Source: Pseudobutyrivibrio sp. (lineage in GTDB: Bacteria; Bacillota; Clostridia; Lachnospirales; Lachnospiraceae). Taken from it: a stretch of 47,022 nt of DNA. Position 1 is the first letter of the stretch; the number at the start of each line of letters is the position of its first letter. Positions 7,347-16,598 of the stretch are shown piece after piece. The notes under the pieces were generated by a model. That model had not been told where the DNA came from and searched no databases. It saw nothing but the letters and a program-made list of their open reading frames with translations. A program made the position numbers and the translations under genes. The stretch covers positions 1-47,022 of the forward strand of contig NZ_JAFUSK010000071.1 in the NCBI RefSeq assembly GCF_017471675.1, read 5' to 3'.

Positions 7347-9011
7347 TTATTTTCCTGAATAGAAATCATCGAAATACTTCTGATAGATTTCAAGGTACTG
7401 GTCTAAGCCGTAGCTATCAACCTGGTTAATGTATGCATTCCATGAATCATCTGTAATACCATCTCTGATGAACTCAGCCTTGCTTGAGTTTAAGTATGAT
7501 ACTAAATCTGTCTGGATTGCTGAAAGCTTTTCTGTGTCTTCTGATGACATAAATACGCGTGGGTAAACATACTTGCAGTGCATATCATCTGTGTAGTAAT
7601 CCTTGATCCAATCAAGACGATACTGTGCATCATCTGGGCATGTTACATACTTTCCGTAGTACTCATCAAGAACTGCAAGAGGACCACCAACGCACTCAGC
7701 CTCACGAACTTCTACTGGAGAAGCATCGCCAAGTGGTGCATGCTTAAGCATCTTCTCGCCATCTTCGTTCTCGCCAAGCTCGAAGATATCGAAATCATCA
7801 TCTTCACCGTATGTTCCCCAGTTGTTCTGTGGAGACTGGAATGGATCATACATCTTATCAAGCCATGCGCAAACAAATGCTGGGTTCTTGCAAACGCTTG
7901 TTACAACACAACGTCCTCTATCAAAACCTGATGTGAAAGAACCGTTTTGTGGAGTTACATTTACTGTATCAGCCTTAAGAGCCTTAAGTGGAACGTAATC
8001 CTGAATGTTATCGATGTTAGCTACATCCCATGTAAAGCAAACACCATATCTGTGTGACTTACCCTTTGCAACGTATGTTGACCAATCCTGTGTGAAGCAC
8101 TCTGGATCGATGAGTCCTTCAGCGTAGAGCTTGTGTAACCATTCAACACCCTTTCTGAAGCCATCTGTTGTTGCTGTACAAATAACCTTCTTGTCATCTG
8201 TAACTGCAATATGCTGTCCCATATCAACATCACCGATACCATCGCCAAAACCGTTGATAAGAAGGTTAGGATCCTGGTCGTTTACGATGCAAGACATAGG
8301 GATAATGTCACCATCAATACCAAATTCCTTCTGAAGCTCTGGAGCGTGCTCCTGGAAAGCAAGTAATACCTGCTCGAACTCATCTACTGTTGTAGGTGTT
8401 TCAAGTCCAAGGAAATCTAACCATTTTTGGTTGATGAATGTCATGTTGTTACCAACTGTCTGGATTGCAGTCTTCTCTGAACCAAGCTGCTCAATCCAAG
8501 GAAGTGCCCAGATGTGTCCATCAGCGTCCTCACACATTGTGCGGTACTCTGGGTACTTATCAAATACTGCCTTAAGGTTTGGCATGTAGTTGTCAATGTA
8601 TTCTTCAACTGGAACGATAACGCCCTGGTCAGCATATCTGATTAAGTCGTTGTCGCCGAAGCCTGCTGTAAATACGAAGTCTGTAAGAGTGTTTGCATTA
8701 GCCATGTTAAGTGAAATCTTGTCACCCCACTGGTCTGAAGAAATTGCTGTCCAATCAACATGTACATTTGTCTCTTCCTCTAATCTCTTGAAGATTGTAC
8801 GATTGTTTGGATTCTCCTCAGTTCCTACAGGGTAGCTTGTTGTACCTGTAATAGTAACTGTCTCTGCAAGTGGGAATGAAAGGTTTTCCATATCAACCTT
8901 ATCAGCGTTACTTGCATTGTTTCCCTTTGAACCGCAACCAGCAAACATTGTAGATGCCATTGTTACGGCTAGAGCTGCAGCCACAACTCTCTTTGCGCTT
9001 TTCATTTTCAT
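7347..9011 (-). CDS. Extracellular solute-binding lipoprotein of an oligosaccharide ABC importer
   Basis: A 554-residue lipoprotein. The signal peptide SAKRVVAAALAVTMASTMFAGC ends at a lipobox Cys (about 26), followed by a polar GSKGNNASN linker. The length and the partner permeases fit the LplA/YtcQ class of large substrate-binding proteins. It should capture the sugar outside the membrane and hand it to the two permeases encoded upstream. The neighbouring GH32 and fructokinase make fructo-oligosaccharides the likely ligand (inference). The SD is GGAGGAGAG, 56 bp behind the permease stop. Confidence 0.88.
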   Translation of the reverse strand: MKMKSAKRVVAAALAVTMASTMFAGCGSKGNNASNADKVDMENLSFPLAETVTITGTTSYPVGTEENPNNRTIFKRLEEETNVHVDWTAISSDQWGDKISLNMANANTLTDFVFTAGFGDNDLIRYADQGVIVPVEEYIDNYMPNLKAVFDKYPEYRTMCEDADGHIWALPWIEQLGSEKTAIQTVGNNMTFINQKWLDFLGLETPTTVDEFEQVLLAFQEHAPELQKEFGIDGDIIPMSCIVNDQDPNLLINGFGDGIGDVDMGQHIAVTDDKKVICTATTDGFRKGVEWLHKLYAEGLIDPECFTQDWSTYVAKGKSHRYGVCFTWDVANIDNIQDYVPLKALKADTVNVTPQNGSFTSGFDRGRCVVTSVCKNPAFVCAWLDKMYDPFQSPQNNWGTYGEDDDFDIFELGENEDGEKMLKHAPLGDASPVEVREAECVGGPLAVLDEYYGKYVTCPDDAQYRLDWIKDYYTDDMHCKYVYPRVFMSSEDTEKLSAIQTDLVSYLNSSKAEFIRDGITDDSWNAYINQVDSYGLDQYLEIYQKYFDDFYSGK

Positions 9012-9067
9012 TCTTTTCTCTCCTCCTATATATAGAACTGCTTTGTGCAGTTACTAGCAAAAACGAT

Positions 9068-9979
9068 TTATCCCTTTACTGAACCCACCATAATTCCAGC
9101 ATCGAAATACTTCTGGAAGAATGGATACATTACAAGAAGTGGTAAACTTGAAATAATAATTGTTGAATACTTAAGTAGCTCTGCAAGGCGAGCTCTTTCA
9201 GCTGTAGACTGCATATCTGCAATCATACCTGCATCTGGCTGGTTCTGAATAAGAATAGCTCTAAGTACAAGCTGAAGTGGCTGCTTAGATGCTGTGTTTA
9301 AGTAAATCATTGCATCGAAGTAGCTGTTCCACATTCCAACGAACTGCCATAAGCAAAGAACTGCGATAACAGGTGTACATACTGGAAGAAGTATTCTGAA
9401 GAATAATGTAAGCTCGTTGGCTCCATCAACCTCGGCAGCTTCTCTAAGCTCACCAGGAATTCCTCTATAATATGTACGGGCGATAATCATGTTCCATACT
9501 GAAAATGCTCCAGGAAGAACAACTGCCCACATGCTATCAAGCAAACCTAAGTTACTGATAAGCAAGTATGTAGGAATCAAACCACCGCCGAAGAACATTG
9601 TAATCATGAAGATTACGTTAAATATCTTTCTTCCCTTGAAATCCTCTAAAGACATTGGGTAGGCACATAGCATGGTAATAGCTACTGATAGGAAGGTAAA
9701 CACTAATGAATAAATCACTGCATTTTTAAAGCCTACCCAAATCTGTGCATTAGAAATAACTCTTTCATAGGCAGTTAATGTCCATTTGTCTAAATCAAAA
9801 GTAATACCTGTATTCTGTAATGTTATAGGATCCATAAATGATGCTACAACGATGTATACCATAGGAATGATGATTGCTAAAACAAAAAGAGCAAGTATCA
9901 CATATCCTACAAGTAAAAATGCTTTGTCCCCAGCTGAGTATCGTGAGAACGCGCTTTTTTTCTTTTTCTTTGCTTCCAT
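9068..9979 (-). CDS. Sugar ABC transporter permease, LplC/YtcP type
   Basis: About 303 residues with six predicted membrane segments. The EAA cytoplasmic-loop motif that contacts the ATPase is ELREAAEVDGANELTLFF (about 195). ATG 9979 is chosen because GGGAGG lies five bases before it; an earlier in-frame codon at 10009 would overlap the upstream gene and lacks a ribosome site. The N-terminus is a Lys-rich cytoplasmic stretch. It pairs with the LplB-type permease encoded 13 bp upstream. No ATPase gene is in the operon, so a shared MsmK-like ATPase elsewhere is expected. Confidence 0.9.
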   Translation of the reverse strand: MEAKKKKKSAFSRYSAGDKAFLLVGYVILALFVLAIIIPMVYIVVASFMDPITLQNTGITFDLDKWTLTAYERVISNAQIWVGFKNAVIYSLVFTFLSVAITMLCAYPMSLEDFKGRKIFNVIFMITMFFGGGLIPTYLLISNLGLLDSMWAVVLPGAFSVWNMIIARTYYRGIPGELREAAEVDGANELTLFFRILLPVCTPVIAVLCLWQFVGMWNSYFDAMIYLNTASKQPLQLVLRAILIQNQPDAGMIADMQSTAERARLAELLKYSTIIISSLPLLVMYPFFQKYFDAGIMVGSVKG

Positions 9980-9992
9980 TTCTTCCTCCCGA

Positions 9993-10904
9993 TTATAGTC
10001 CCTGACCATCGTTCATCTTTTCAACAACCTTGTTAACTGTAATAAGCAAGATTAAGTTGATAACTGTATTAAACAAACCAACGGCTGTTGAATAACTGTA
10101 GTTTCCATCAAGCAAACCTTTCTTATATACGTAGGTTGCAATGATTTCTGATGCACCAAGGTTCAAATCTGTCTGAAGTGCATAAGCTTTTTCGAAGCCG
10201 ATGCTCATGATGTTACCAGCCTGTAAAATAAACTGGATAACAACCATATCCTTAATAGCTGGCCACTCTACAGCCTTAATCTGCTGGAAGATGTTAGCTC
10301 CGTCGATCTGAGCTGCTTCCTTTAATTCCTGGCTGGCATTTGCAAGTGAAGCTGTGTACATGATTGATGCCCAACCTGCTCCCTGCCAGATACCACTTAT
10401 AATGTAGATTGGTCTGAATGCCTCTGGCAATGTAAGGAAATTGATTGTGGTATTAAACATCATGTTAACTGGTCCAGTAACTGAAAGAAGAATTCTTACC
10501 ATACCACAAAGTACAATTACTGATATGAAGTTTGGCATATAAAGCACTAGCTGAATCTTCTGCTTTATCTTGCTGCTTTCTATTCTATTAAGAAGAAGTG
10601 CTAAGATAATTGGCACTGGAAAGCCCCATAACAATCCAAATACACTAAGCTTTAATGTGTTTACCAGATAAGATATAAAATCTGGTGAAGATAAGAATTG
10701 TTTGAAGTATTCTAGTCCAACCCATTCACTTCCAAAGAACCCTTTAAAAGGACTGTACTTTTCAAAAGCAATTAATATACCGCCCATTGGTAGGTATCTA
10801 AATATGATTGTAAGTAACAATGCTGGTCCTAAAAAGAACACATATAATCTCCAGTGATGCATAACATAGGTTAGGGTATTATGCATTTTTCCTTCCTTTT
10901 TCAT
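9993..10904 (-). CDS. Sugar ABC transporter permease, LplB type
   Basis: A 303-residue membrane protein with about six membrane segments, the first being LYVFFLGPALLLTIIFRYLP. Its EAA loop reads ELKEAAQIDGANIFQQIKA (about 200). It starts at ATG 10904 behind GAGGAGG. It is the first gene of the five-gene fructan/sucrose operon and lies under the promoter and operator at 10934-10992, divergent from the LacI gene. Confidence 0.9.
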   Translation of the reverse strand: MKKEGKMHNTLTYVMHHWRLYVFFLGPALLLTIIFRYLPMGGILIAFEKYSPFKGFFGSEWVGLEYFKQFLSSPDFISYLVNTLKLSVFGLLWGFPVPIILALLLNRIESSKIKQKIQLVLYMPNFISVIVLCGMVRILLSVTGPVNMMFNTTINFLTLPEAFRPIYIISGIWQGAGWASIMYTASLANASQELKEAAQIDGANIFQQIKAVEWPAIKDMVVIQFILQAGNIMSIGFEKAYALQTDLNLGASEIIATYVYKKGLLDGNYSYSTAVGLFNTVINLILLITVNKVVEKMNDGQGL

Positions 10905-12237: not shown

Positions 12238-12858
12238 ATGCGAAATTTATTAAACTATGATGGGCCAGTACTTAGATTTTTGACAAAGGTTGTATACAGT
12301 GTCTGGCTTAATATACTTTGGTTTGTATGCTGCATACCAGTTGTTACAATTGGTGCATCCACCACTGCACTTTGCTATTGCACTGGAAAGATTGCTCGTG
12401 ATGAGGAGGGCTATATTACAAAGGCCTTCTTTTCAAGCTTCAAGGATGGATTTTTGAAAAGCACTATCATCGGAATCATTATGACTGTACTTGGCGTAGT
12501 GCTTGCTGTTGATGCTTATGTAATGTACCATCTTTGCTTTACATCAGCATTCTGGACACTTGTCAGCGCCATCCTTGTGGTAGCCTGCATCGCATACATC
12601 ATCGTACTTTTATGGGTTTTTCCACTTAACGCCCGCTTCGAAAATACGATAATCAACATGTTCAAGAATTCCATCATGCTTGGCATGAGATTTATCTTTT
12701 GCACTGTTATAATGGCTGGCATATACGTAATCATGGCTTATCTCATCTACTACGTGTGCACGCCACTTATCATTTTTGGAGTTGGCACATGTGCATTGTT
12801 TTCTGCCATGCTTATGAAGAACATCTTAATCCAGTGTGAAGAACAGAGTGAAAGCTAA
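12238..12858 (+). CDS. YesL-family (DUF624) membrane protein
   Basis: A 206-residue protein with about five hydrophobic segments (around 20-42, 75-97, 100-125, 140-165, 170-195). The start RNLLNYDGPVLRFLTKVVYSV and the short TTALCYCTGKI segment are typical of the YesL/DUF624 family. These small membrane proteins are regularly encoded with LplA/B/C-type oligosaccharide importers; their exact role is unknown. It starts 16 bp after the LacI gene behind TAGGAG and is cotranscribed with it. Confidence 0.85.
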   Translation: MRNLLNYDGPVLRFLTKVVYSVWLNILWFVCCIPVVTIGASTTALCYCTGKIARDEEGYITKAFFSSFKDGFLKSTIIGIIMTVLGVVLAVDAYVMYHLCFTSAFWTLVSAILVVACIAYIIVLLWVFPLNARFENTIINMFKNSIMLGMRFIFCTVIMAGIYVIMAYLIYYVCTPLIIFGVGTCALFSAMLMKNILIQCEEQSES

Positions 12859-12862
12859 AATT

Positions 12863-13480
12863 ATGAAAGAAAGAAATTCAACCTTTAAAGAATTAAGCGC
12901 AAAACAAAAACTACAGTGCATATGGGATTATTACAAAATCCACATAATAGTCACTGTAGTTTTGATTTGCGCTATTTTTTCTATTGTAAAAACTGTTAAG
13001 CACGCTGGCTCTGTTGATTTATATGTGGCTTACGTGAATGTAGCCGTTGATGATAAGGTTACTGATGCACTTTTAGGTTCCAGCGGGCTGATTATAAGCA
13101 GCTACAAGGATTTGCTTATCACCGAAGACCCATCTAGCGAGAACTTAGAATACGCCTACGCATCCTCTATGAAGCTTACCTCAGCCCTAAGTGCTGACAG
13201 GCTGGATGTTATTATAGGTGATTCTTATGCTATGTCCTATGCTAATGGCGCTGAGTATCTTGTGAATATTGAAGACTTTGTGAGGGCTAATAGTCCTCAG
13301 TTGTTGGATAAGCTTAAGCCACTGTTTCTAATTGATGATAATGGTAAGCCTTATGCTATCGATGTCTCAGGTTTTGCCCCATTTAAAAGCGCCGGCTACA
13401 GCGAGCCTATCTACCTGGGTATTGTTGCATCTGACAATCACGTGGATGGAAAGCTGACGCTACTTAGGGAGTTTATGTAA
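12863..13480 (+). CDS. Membrane-anchored protein of unknown function, next to yesL
   Basis: About 205 residues: a charged N-terminus, one membrane segment (about 24-44, HIIVTVVLICAIFSIVKTV), then an extracytoplasmic domain. The domain is rich in Asp/Ser and contains a DVIIGDSYAMSYANGAEYLV stretch. ATG 12863, four bases after the yesL stop, is preferred; a GTG at 12836 is also in frame but would overlap yesL without a ribosome site. The family is not recognised here. Its place behind LacI and YesL suggests a role with the sugar importer. The stop codon is formed at the edge of the long palindrome at 13478-14054, so the C-terminus may have been changed by that insertion. Confidence 0.7.
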   Translation: MKERNSTFKELSAKQKLQCIWDYYKIHIIVTVVLICAIFSIVKTVKHAGSVDLYVAYVNVAVDDKVTDALLGSSGLIISSYKDLLITEDPSSENLEYAYASSMKLTSALSADRLDVIIGDSYAMSYANGAEYLVNIEDFVRANSPQLLDKLKPLFLIDDNGKPYAIDVSGFAPFKSAGYSEPIYLGIVASDNHVDGKLTLLREFM

Positions 13481-14052
13481 TCCCCGCCACCCGCTGGACC
13501 CGTCCCCCTTAGGTAGGTGGCTACAGTCACAGATTTTAGATTATCTAAATGTGAAATCTTGCATATTTATTAGTAGGTGTTCTTACAAAGTTTTACAATT
13601 CTATCAGTAAAGTATGCAGAGAGCGGACATATTTGTTATTTTCAAGGAGCATAAGTATGAGGCTAGTTATGCAGTATTGCTTTTGCTTTGGAACGAGCTT
13701 AGAAAAATAAAAAGCAGGTTTTGTTATATATAGTCATGCGCCGCCATGGACGGCGGCGCAAGTGGCCACTTGAAACACGATGTTGAATGTGCCACGGTGG
13801 CTATATATACAAAACCTGCTTTTTAATTTTTGTTAGCGAGTGTAGTAGCAATAGCAATACTGCATAATCTAGCTCATGCTTATGCTTTGTAGTCTATGTT
13901 ATGTCCGCTCTCTGCATACATTACTTTCGAATTGTAAAAGCTGTGTAAGTACACCTACGTTATGCAAGATTGCTCACATTAAGATAATCTACAAATCTGC
14001 TCCAATGTTAGCCACCTACCTAAGGGGGACGGGCCCAGCTGGTGGCGGGGAT
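13480..14052. repeat. 573-bp imperfect palindrome, possible MITE-like element
   Basis: The whole gap between two convergent genes is one long inverted repeat. The outer 46 nt of the two arms pair at 44 positions. Further perfect blocks include 13612-13631 with 13900-13919 and 13709-13724 with 13809-13824. The centre holds smaller hairpins (TGCGCCGCC/GGCGGCGCA at 13737-13760). Each arm starts ATCCCCGCCACC and is flanked by TA on both sides (13478-13479 and 14053-14054), which could be a TA target duplication of the Tc1/IS630 kind. Both neighbouring stop codons (TAA) use the edge bases. No convincing coding frame is present. A transcript from either strand would fold into a very long hairpin. 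It could be a non-autonomous element or a structured RNA. Confidence 0.85.
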
Positions 14053-14255
14053 TATTTGATACCTACGTATTCGTAGCCGGCAGCTTCAACAGCAGCCTTA
14101 AGGTCAGCTTCTGCTACATCAGCTGATGTCTTTAGGGTTACTGTGTTGGCCTCATGGTTTGCTGTAGCCTCATCAACTCCTGGGAGTTTTTCAAGTGCTT
14201 CCTTTACGTGTGCTTCGCAGTGCTGGCACATCATTCCATTAACTGTGATTTCCAT
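14052..14255 (-). CDS. copZ: CopZ-like copper chaperone from an internal, in-frame start within copA
   Basis: Inside copA, an ATG at 14255 is preceded by AAGGAGG (14267-14273) with an 11-base gap. Initiation there would give a free 67-residue protein starting MEITVNGMMCQHCEAHVKEA, which is a complete CopZ-type heavy-metal-associated domain with CxxC (Cys10, Cys13) and the usual length. In other bacteria CopZ is a separate gene that delivers Cu(I) to CopA; in E. coli a chaperone is made from copA by frameshifting. The flexible Asn-rich stretch just before the start looks like a former gene junction. Dual production is inferred, not shown. Confidence 0.6.
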   Translation of the reverse strand: MEITVNGMMCQHCEAHVKEALEKLPGVDEATANHEANTVTLKTSADVAEADLKAAVEAAGYEYVGIK

Positions 14256-16598
14256 AGTGTTGTTTTCCTCCTTGTTGTTTACTGTATTATTAATAAGCAT
14301 GTCATGGCCTAAGGTGTTCTTCATCGGTTTGTCCTTAGAGCTGTCATGCATTTTAAATAGATTTAGCCTTAGTGCATTGGTTACTACGCAAAAGCTTGAT
14401 AGGCTCATGGCTGCTGCACCAAACATAGGGTTAAGTGTCCATCCAAAGGCGTGTATATAGGCTCCTGCTGCAAGTGGAATTCCTATTATATTGTAGAAGA
14501 ATGCCCAGAATAGATTCTCATGAATATTCTTAAGTGTGGCCTTGCTAAGTCTGATAGCTGCTGCAACATCAGATAATCTGCTTTTTACCACTACTAAATC
14601 TGCTGCATCAATGGCCACATCAGTGCCTGCGCCAATAGCAATTCCTATATCCGCCCTGGTGAGAGCTGGGGCATCATTTATTCCATCACCTACCATGGCA
14701 ACCTTGCCAAATTCCTGAAGCTTTCTAATTACTTCTTCCTTGCCATCAGGCTTAACACCTGATATAACTTCATCTACCCCGGCTTCCTTGGCAATAGCCT
14801 GTGCAGTCTTTTCGTTATCACCTGTCAGCATCACCACATGAATGCCCATGTTTTTAAGATGCCTAATTGCCTCTGGGCTGTCATCCTTGATTACATCTGC
14901 CACAGATATAATCCCAAGGAACCTGTTTCCTTTGGCAAAGAACAAAGGTGTTTCTCCTTTGTTAGCAAGTGTATCTGCAAGACCAAGGCTTTCTTCATCT
15001 ATATCAACATATTTTTTGATAAAATCTCCGTTACCACCATATATGTTTTCTCCATCAAGTGTGGCACTTAGGCCACTGCCAGCATGAGCTTTAAAATCAG
15101 ATATGTCTGCTGGCTCCATGCCATCCTCTAAGCCACGTTCTACTATGGCCTTAGCCAGAGGATGCTCCGATTTGCTTTCAAGAGCAAAGGCTGTTCTTAT
15201 AAGATCAACATCATCTATTCCTTCTGCCTCAAAAACACCTATAACCTTTGGCTCACCCTTGGTGATGGTACCTGTCTTATCAAGGGCAACTATCTGAGTC
15301 TTACCTGCCTCCTCAAGGGAAACTGCCGTTTTAAACATGATGCCATTCTTGGCACCCATGCCGTTTCCTACCATTATGGCAACTGGTGTGGCAAGGCCAA
15401 GTGCACATGGACAGCTGATAACAAGCACCGAGATTGCCCTTGCGAGGGCGTAGCCTACAGGCTGTCCCACTAGCATCCATATTACAAATGTGATAATGGC
15501 AACTATAATAACTGCTGGAACAAATACTCCCGATACTCTATCTGCAATCTTTGCAATTGGAGCCTTTGTAGCTGCTGCATCACTTACCATCTGAATAATC
15601 TGAGAAAGGGTGGTATCCTTTCCTACTCGGGTGGCCTCACAAACCATGTAACCGCTTTCGTTGCTGGTAGCTGCAGATACTGTATCACCCACTGCCTTAT
15701 CTACAGGGATGCTCTCGCCAGTAAGGGCTGCCTCATTAACAGCACTGCTTCCCTCAACTACCACGCCATCTACAGGTATATTATCACCTGGTCTGACTAC
15801 AAATCGATCTCCTATCTTCACCTGTTCAATAGGAACCTCTACCTCTTTGCCATCTACTATGACAACAGCTGTCTTTGCTGCAAGCTTCATCAAATCCTTC
15901 AGGGCATTAGTAGTTCTGCCCTTCGAAACAGCTTCCAATAGCTTACCTACAGTAATAAGGGTGAGAATCATAGCCGCTGATTCGAAATAAAACTCATCCA
16001 TCAGCTCCATTACTCTTGTTGAATTTCCATTCAACTGTGCACTTGTCATAGCAAACAGGGCATAAACACTATAAATAAATGAAGCCGCTGAACCCATGGC
16101 AACTAATGTATCCATATTAGGAGCCCGGTGCGCAAGCCCCTTAAATCCACTAATAAAGAACCTCTGGTTGATTACCATAATCGTTGCCGCAAGAATCAAC
16201 TCGTAGATTCCCATAGCAATATGGTTTCCATCTAAGAATCCTGGCAATGGCCAATCCCACAGCATGTGCCCCATGGTCACATACATAAGAGGCAGCAGTA
16301 TAATCACCGATGCAATCAGCCTATTTCTAATCTTTGGTGTTTCAGTATCCTTTAAATCATTATCATAATTTGGAACTGAGCTACTATTTGCGTCCTCACT
16401 GGCCTTTACACTGGCACCATAGCCAGCATCCTCTACAGCCTTTATAATAGCTGCCGCATCTGCACTGCCCTCTACTCCCATGGAATTAGTAAGCAGGCTC
16501 ACAGCACAGCTGTCAACACCAGGCACAGCCGAAACTGCCTTTTCCACCCTGGCCTGGCAAGCGGCGCAGCTCATTCCCGTAACATTGTATTGCTCCAT
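14052..16598 (-). CDS. copA: Copper-exporting P1B-type ATPase with N- and C-terminal metal-binding domains
   Basis: An 848-residue membrane ATPase. An N-terminal heavy-metal domain (1-70) has the site MSCAACQARVEKA. Eight membrane segments follow, with the transport-site motif SCPCALGLATPV (about 395). The actuator motif is LTGES, the phosphorylation motif DKTGTITKG, and the hinge motif MVGDGINDAPAL. After the last membrane segments and a low-complexity Asn-rich linker comes a second metal-binding domain (about 782-848) with GMMCQHCEAHV. It should pump Cu(I) out of the cell using ATP. It is cotranscribed with csoR, 21 bp upstream. The C-terminal domain carries its own ribosome site and start (separate entry). 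Confidence 0.96.
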   Translation of the reverse strand: MEQYNVTGMSCAACQARVEKAVSAVPGVDSCAVSLLTNSMGVEGSADAAAIIKAVEDAGYGASVKASEDANSSSVPNYDNDLKDTETPKIRNRLIASVIILLPLMYVTMGHMLWDWPLPGFLDGNHIAMGIYELILAATIMVINQRFFISGFKGLAHRAPNMDTLVAMGSAASFIYSVYALFAMTSAQLNGNSTRVMELMDEFYFESAAMILTLITVGKLLEAVSKGRTTNALKDLMKLAAKTAVVIVDGKEVEVPIEQVKIGDRFVVRPGDNIPVDGVVVEGSSAVNEAALTGESIPVDKAVGDTVSAATSNESGYMVCEATRVGKDTTLSQIIQMVSDAAATKAPIAKIADRVSGVFVPAVIIVAIITFVIWMLVGQPVGYALARAISVLVISCPCALGLATPVAIMVGNGMGAKNGIMFKTAVSLEEAGKTQIVALDKTGTITKGEPKVIGVFEAEGIDDVDLIRTAFALESKSEHPLAKAIVERGLEDGMEPADISDFKAHAGSGLSATLDGENIYGGNGDFIKKYVDIDEESLGLADTLANKGETPLFFAKGNRFLGIISVADVIKDDSPEAIRHLKNMGIHVVMLTGDNEKTAQAIAKEAGVDEVISGVKPDGKEEVIRKLQEFGKVAMVGDGINDAPALTRADIGIAIGAGTDVAIDAADLVVVKSRLSDVAAAIRLSKATLKNIHENLFWAFFYNIIGIPLAAGAYIHAFGWTLNPMFGAAAMSLSSFCVVTNALRLNLFKMHDSSKDKPMKNTLGHDMLINNTVNNKEENNTMEITVNGMMCQHCEAHVKEALEKLPGVDEATANHEANTVTLKTSADVAEADLKAAVEAAGYEYVGIK

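Follow-up and report, generated by a model that had tools for sequence, protein, structure and literature searches.

A palindrome of 577 nt (positions 13478–14054) fills the gap between two convergent genes in the window, the whole 47,022-nt stretch of Pseudobutyrivibrio sp. DNA that was analysed. We interpret it, with a probability of roughly 0.6, as an old, decayed copy of a MITE-like giant-hairpin element with a TwoAYGGAY RNA at its tip, the arms being maintained at the DNA level and the tip being kept as an RNA. The palindrome is genuine and far beyond chance: the RNA fold of positions 13470–14060 reaches -347.8 kcal/mol compared with -156.2 kcal/mol (sd 6.6) in 100 shuffles (z -29.2), and the DNA fold of positions 13478–14054 gives a z of -29.6. 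A sequence-only reading of this stretch had described a near-full-length palindrome of 573 bp between convergent genes, with 44 of the outer 46 positions matching and additional hairpins at the apex, and had proposed RNA folding as a check. The outer-arm match was reproduced, the element does span from one stop codon to the other, and two tip hairpins lie in the inner TwoAYGGAY part; the length had to be corrected. The features of the region are the following (strand in brackets).

12836–13480 (+): left neighbour ORF, 214 aa, stop codon TAA at 13478–13480
13478–14054 (no strand): entire palindrome, occupying the space between the convergent stops; the outermost TAA on each side is a stop codon
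13478–13523 (+): left outer arm, GC-rich, 44/46 (96%) complementary to 14009–14054
13531–13631 (+): left middle arm, made up of stem blocks with asymmetric internal loops, among them a TTTATTA bulge
13687–13843 (+): TwoAYGGAY RNA (RF01731), inner stem and two tip hairpins, covariance-model match
13687–13695 (+): TTTGGAACG side of an internal loop, GGA in 23/28 aligned copies
13737–13760 (+): first tip hairpin, loop AUGGAC at 13746–13751, GGA in 28/28 aligned copies
13775–13784 (+): second tip hairpin, loop ACGAU instead of AYGGAY (degenerate, lacking a G), GGA in 17/28 aligned copies
13900–14000 (-): right middle arm, partner of the left middle arm
14009–14054 (-): right outer arm, partner of 13478–13523
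14052–16598 (-): right neighbour, copper-translocating P-type ATPase gene copA, 848 aa, stop codon at 14054–14052, TIGR01511 over the cut-off

Both ends of the window copy read TAATCCCCGCCACC. Further inwards, the arms contain a block of 26 nt with 96% complementarity (13606–13631/13900–13925) and one of 22 nt with 95% complementarity (13703–13724/13809–13830). No ORF of at least 80 aa and, in a consensus scan, no promoter-like site was found within the element, and blastn against phage and plasmid collections returned no match to it. The left neighbour ORF has no Pfam or NCBIfam match. Elsewhere in the window, a neighbouring ORF at 12238–12858 matches DUF624 (PF04854), with a MusI-family model below its cut-off, and ABC-transporter-like ORFs are visible by eye at 7347–10904.

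The tip of the palindrome was identified as the Rfam TwoAYGGAY RNA with 79.4 bits against a gathering threshold of 43, covering model positions 1–168 of 168; the window contains no other Rfam match at gathering level. That the tip is TwoAYGGAY RNA is thus well supported. TwoAYGGAY is an orphan RNA family, a candidate since 2010, without known function. In the titles, abstract openings and passages of the literature covered, no tie between this RNA and mobile elements was found.

The locus was compared with its relatives using the left neighbour ORF as query, and two were found. One of them, in Pseudobutyrivibrio ruminis SIG311, carries an allele without the element, in which the stop codons of the two ORFs lie 45 bp apart and a terminator-like hairpin occupies the gap. 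The ORF lengths in this allele are the same as in the window (205 aa from the homologous ATG for the left neighbour, 848 aa for copA) and the stops lie at homologous places, so the element gave no new stop positions. This contradicts the proposal of the sequence-only reading that the element supplies both stop codons. The allele of P. ruminis SIG311 may never have had the element, or it could represent a loss. In the second relative, Pseudobutyrivibrio sp. RGIG9167, the element is present at the orthologous site in inverted orientation: it is 97.8% identical to the window copy when reverse-complemented (566/579 columns) and 76% identical in the same orientation (460/602).

The same comparison bears on the idea that the element is a Tc1/IS630-type MITE that duplicated a TA target. 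A TA does flank the palindrome on both sides and the copy number is MITE-like. However, each of these TAs opens a TAA stop codon, one belonging to the 12836–13480 ORF and the other to copA; both stops are found at the same places in the element-free allele, and kindred copies have 8-bp duplications and different ends. We therefore regard a Tc1/IS630 origin as highly improbable.

Further copies and covariation, which the sequence-only reading had proposed looking for among relatives, were both found. The genome of the window contains 14 TwoAYGGAY matches, 13 of them over the cut-off. Four matches have their start no more than 10 bases away from the end of a contig, and a fifth stops 21 bases from a contig end, as expected if palindromes of this kind break short-read assemblies; some of the 14 may therefore be halves of a single copy. 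Within the genus, 27 of 29 genomes, counting that of the window, are positive, and the number of matches per genome ranges from 0 to 49. Ten matches in a genome of two contigs (G003), eight in one of three contigs (G028) and at least seven in a single-contig genome from another clostridial family (G065) indicate that faulty assembly alone does not account for the copies. By local arm alignment, the palindrome reaches 500 bp or more in 59 of 71 measured genus copies (median 625), and lengths of up to ~800 bp occur (local alignment). Across the class, matches were obtained in 36 of 391 genomes, in 27 of them over the cut-off, and in 23 of 222 clostridial genera. Most palindromes outside the genus are short (132–574 bp, median 275, for the 25 untruncated loci of 28), and at 14 of these 25 loci the arm parts not covered by the Rfam model outscore every one of 40 mononucleotide shuffles.

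The mobility of the palindrome family is well supported by the ends of the kindred copies. The sequence GTTACYATTCAC was detected at both ends of 25 of the 71 genus copies when up to two mismatches were allowed, compared with none for a reversed-pattern control, and of 32 copies at up to three mismatches, compared with six for the control; copies bounded in this way are best seen in one genome (G008). Among these 32 copies, five are flanked by an exact 8-bp duplication and seven by one matching at 7 or more of 8 positions, while shuffled flanks yield 0.31 such cases on average and at most 3. The flanks of the remaining 25 fall below 7/8, suggesting that most copies are old or rearranged or have ends that arose by chance. 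The window copy has neither GTTACYATTCAC terminal repeats nor a target-site duplication, and its own insertion is therefore inferred; it is placed by kinship.

Among the genomes of the genus, which were searched for IS66 transposases, one (G021) has an intact IS66-type element of 2963 bp (locus L163) whose ends are GTTACYATTCAC, except that the first base of the left end differs. It is bounded by the exact 8-bp duplication CGCATAAA, starts 11 nt behind a stop codon and encodes a transposase of 581 aa that matches NF033517 with 183.2 bits (cut-off 180) and also PF03050. IS66 elements make 8-bp duplications. With this protein as query, the 29 genomes contain only the intact copy and one fragment (G019), and none was found in the genome of the window. 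From these shared ends and duplications, an IS66-family transposase is the likely motor of the palindrome family. In the single-contig genome of another clostridial family, seven copies were examined; these have the ends CTGYRATTCGTAATAT and a length of 284–285 bp, and five of them have shared flanks of 8–10 bp (one of these counts two element bases), whereas only 0.72 copies reach 7 or more when the pairings are shuffled.

Two other insertion sequences were considered as the autonomous partner and dismissed. A TwoAYGGAY-type palindrome with an exact 8-bp duplication (L097, 1308–3652, genome G013) is interrupted by an IS110-family gene, which represents an insertion into the copy. The second candidate, an IS4-like element, has its own ends CAATGTCATTAAG and sits inside hairpins; it appears to insert into hairpin tips. 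At 4 of 13 loci (L119, L120, L121 and L123) the flanks of the IS4-like element with the ends CAATGTCATTAAGTTAA are the two halves of a terminator-like hairpin, and a relative of it in L098 is matched by NF033592. The same group occupies the first AYGGAY loop of two giant palindromes in G028 (L136 and L139), with 9-bp duplications GGAAGGCGG and CCGCCGTCC; its ends there were matched with mismatches allowed and not by exact search. Congeners also contain fourteen elements of ~190 bp whose GTTACTATTCACAG ends are those of the palindrome family (L099, L102–L106, L108–L112 and L114–L116); judged by eye, a 7/8 duplication is reached only by L114 and, if its outermost ends are taken, by L102.

The suggestion of a MITE of palindromic form therefore holds in part. 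The window element is short, non-coding and dispersed, as MITEs are, and its kindred copies are MITE-like in their ends and 8-bp duplications; terminal repeats and a duplication are found in these copies and not in the window copy, and the type is not Tc1/IS630. Likewise, ends in common with an IS66 transposase-bearing element apply to the kindred copies only, through L163.

The position of the copies relative to genes was determined for 65 copies with an ORF on both sides, taking the edge of the arm alignment as the edge of the element and longest-ORF calls, made without a gene finder, as genes. The median distance to the element is 1.5 nt for the 3′ ends of neighbours (38/74 within 15 nt) and 92 nt for their 5′ ends (3/56 within 15 nt). 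As the 3′ ends are so near, the element sits where terminators sit. Given this position directly behind stop codons, and the terminator-like hairpin at the same place in the element-free allele, the element might be a bidirectional terminator spread by insertion, with the hairpin ending transcription of both neighbours. However, a consensus scan, which considers loops of 3–8 nt only, found no terminator-like site inside the window element, and the other allele manages with a gap of 45 bp compared with 577 bp here. We consider this explanation quite unlikely. An origin of the outer stems from host terminators was also discarded, since in the TIR-bearing copies inspected the GC-rich stem lies inside the TIRs.

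The sequence-only reading had further noted that the arms drift while pairing is kept, possibly by selection for structure, and had asked for covariation. Covariation is strong. In an alignment of 28 copies, with the structure chosen by RNAalifold on that alignment itself, which favours this structure, pairing is kept in 92.9% of 3292 cells, changes on both sides are seen at 93 of 118 pairs, and double changes occupy 753 cells compared with 233.6 in shuffles and 105–154 with partners slid. These compensatory changes extend along the whole aligned stem, and the asymmetric internal loops recur in the 28 copies, as would be predicted for a giant structured RNA gene in which a transcript of the full ~600-nt hairpin is under selection as one RNA rod, with repeats arising by ordinary duplication.

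The kind of mismatch bears on this explanation. A folded RNA tolerates G-U and not A-C, while for DNA both are simple mismatches. In arm alignments of the 71 genus copies made without credit for G-U, 286 G-U and 267 A-C were counted (p 0.44; element copies alone counted), and G-U accounts for 1.8% of G-U plus Watson-Crick pairs. As G-U is no commoner than A-C within the genus, arm pairing is probably kept at the DNA level by template switching. On the 28-copy alignment, the RNAalifold pairs, chosen by a method that favours G-U, show a mild excess of 67 G-U over 43 A-C (arms 48:27, inner stem 7:16, tip 10:0), and seven of the ten G-U at the tip fall at one loop-closing pair. A clearer excess was obtained with unbiased alignments of 33 copies from other genera (71 G-U, 39 A-C, p 0.003), and the inverted orthologue in RGIG9167 differs from the window copy by seven changes at pairs, all single-sided, of which six are G-U and one is A-C. 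Conservation shows no clear difference between unpaired and paired columns (0.74 and 0.72, p 0.37). Selection at the RNA level thus exists as judged from these comparisons. It is clearest at the tip and in other genera; in the genus itself, little of it is seen in the long arms.

Against the RNA rod stand the G-U/A-C parity within the genus, the shortness of most palindromes outside it, the lack of a promoter-like site in the element and the evidence of mobility, that is, terminal repeats, 8-bp duplications and an element-free allele. A selected rod over the whole length therefore appears unlikely to us and weighs less than a mobile hairpin. The idea of an RNA gene, raised by the sequence-only reading, survives in the known RNA at the tip, and its observation of drifting arms with preserved pairing was correct; as the source of that pairing, DNA copying is favoured by the parity at least as much as selection for structure.

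Copying between arms at the DNA level is consequently the better reading for this genus, probable and not proven from the comparisons available, although equal numbers of G-U and A-C would also be expected if the RNAs of both strands had to fold. According to a published study (PMC8604942), template switching between inverted repeats homogenises the arms and inverts the spacer; both products were encountered here, as arm matching and as the one inversion in RGIG9167. Among the copies of G008, the share of double changes among double and single ones rises with divergence (0.39, 0.50, 0.61 and 0.68 in four well-filled bins of 138, 198, 160 and 63 pairs of copies). Single-sided changes first and double ones later are predicted by RNA selection and by DNA copying alike; instant conversion of the arms found no support, as single-sided changes dominate at the lowest divergence. 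The c-di-GMP-I riboswitch was dropped as a control for G-U, since the genus has just 6 copies of it. Arm modules had been suspected of flipping independently in several copies, but most of these cases disappeared once the loci were turned to one orientation. At one locus (L008) the middle arm part is still flipped relative to the tip after turning, in comparison with other copies of its own genome.

A 2014 study proposed, from motif matches, that TwoAYGGAY binds CsrA (PMC4333381), whose binding motif is described in another source as GGA in hairpin loops (PMC4383904). GGA is kept in all 28 aligned copies in the first loop, in 23 in an internal loop and in 17 in the second loop. CsrA has one match in the genome of the window and is present in 28 of the 29 genus genomes. 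It is found in 31 of 36 TwoAYGGAY-positive genomes compared with 94 of 355 others (p 2e-12), in 23 of 23 positive genera (matched by eye) compared with 54 of 199 others, and in 12 of 12 positive families (p 1e-5, a lower bound, taking 86 families). However, flagellin is present in 33 of the 36 positive genomes (p 5e-13) and in all 125 genomes with CsrA, and among flagellated genomes TwoAYGGAY occurs in 31 of 125 with CsrA and 2 of 17 without (p 0.36). Since flagellin co-occurs equally, the link may be to motile lineages and not to CsrA itself. Binding of CsrA by the tip loops is a plausible prediction. One copy in G008 (L107, about 1300–1960) lies between csrA, behind a terminator-like hairpin, and a fliD-like ORF, both judged by eye; a fliW-like ORF precedes csrA.

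The retention of the tip also separates the preferred reading from that of purely selfish DNA, according to which the hairpin would serve transposition or its own upkeep, the arms would be homogenised by template switching and the tip would have no function for the host. Equal numbers of G-U and A-C, the two products of template switching (PMC8604942), including the inverted orthologue, and the succession of single-sided and double changes in G008, which selection would give likewise, agree with such an element. Against it stand the GGA of the first loop, kept in every aligned copy, and the RNA itself, which is recognisable in 23 clostridial genera and is carried by elements with different ends; we find this reading doubtful.

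In our preferred reading, the palindrome would belong to a non-autonomous MITE-like element: a single giant quasi-palindrome forms its body, and the TwoAYGGAY RNA its conserved tip. It would be moved by an IS66-family transposase and land in the terminator zone behind genes, where insertion presumably does little harm; at the window locus it would have replaced the terminator. What keeps the arms complementary would mainly be a DNA-level process, either template switching or recombination between the arms, in which one arm is rewritten from the other and the element is occasionally inverted; the tip would be retained for its RNA, most likely through binding of CsrA to the GGA loops. A broader and tentative proposal, which we hold as a possibility on the less likely side, is that TwoAYGGAY is a mobile CsrA-sequestering RNA whose copy number (0–49) resets CsrA and flagellar control, whose transposon ends switch between lineages and whose stem in this genus is kept by template switching and not by point-by-point RNA selection.

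The finding of TwoAYGGAY in mobile elements of at least two clostridial families, with different ends, means that its conservation has to be read differently, and a mobile TwoAYGGAY offers a testable link between transposons and CsrA control. The arms provide a natural case in which very strong covariation need not mean selection on a folded RNA, as the near-equal G-U and A-C numbers suggest copying of the DNA arms. If so, this would caution covariation-based RNA discovery.

The element resembles several known systems. With the TwoAYGGAY family (RF01731) it shares a full-length match over the curated cut-off, the tip hairpins and the GGA in the first loop; the Rfam model comprises 168 nt, whereas in the window the RNA is the tip of a 577-bp palindrome of a mobile family and its second loop is degenerate. 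Like IS66-related bacterial MITEs, the family is non-coding and variable in copy number, with terminal repeats as in a transposase-bearing element and some exact 8-bp duplications in the kindred copies. In contrast to these MITEs, it is palindromic over nearly its whole length and carries a conserved structured RNA, which has other ends in another family. REP and BIME sequences and other extragenic palindromes likewise lie behind genes, are repeated and serve as targets of insertion sequences; IS1111, for instance, inserts into a Coxiella MITE (PMC10969869). However, REPs measure 20–40 bp (PMC3733652), while the palindromes here measure ~600 bp and have terminal repeats and duplications in kindred copies. 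Finally, CsrA-sequestering sRNAs of the CsrB and RsmY type also present hairpins with GGA loops; unlike these, TwoAYGGAY is mobile and occurs at many loci with few GGA loops per copy, and its binding of CsrA is putative here.
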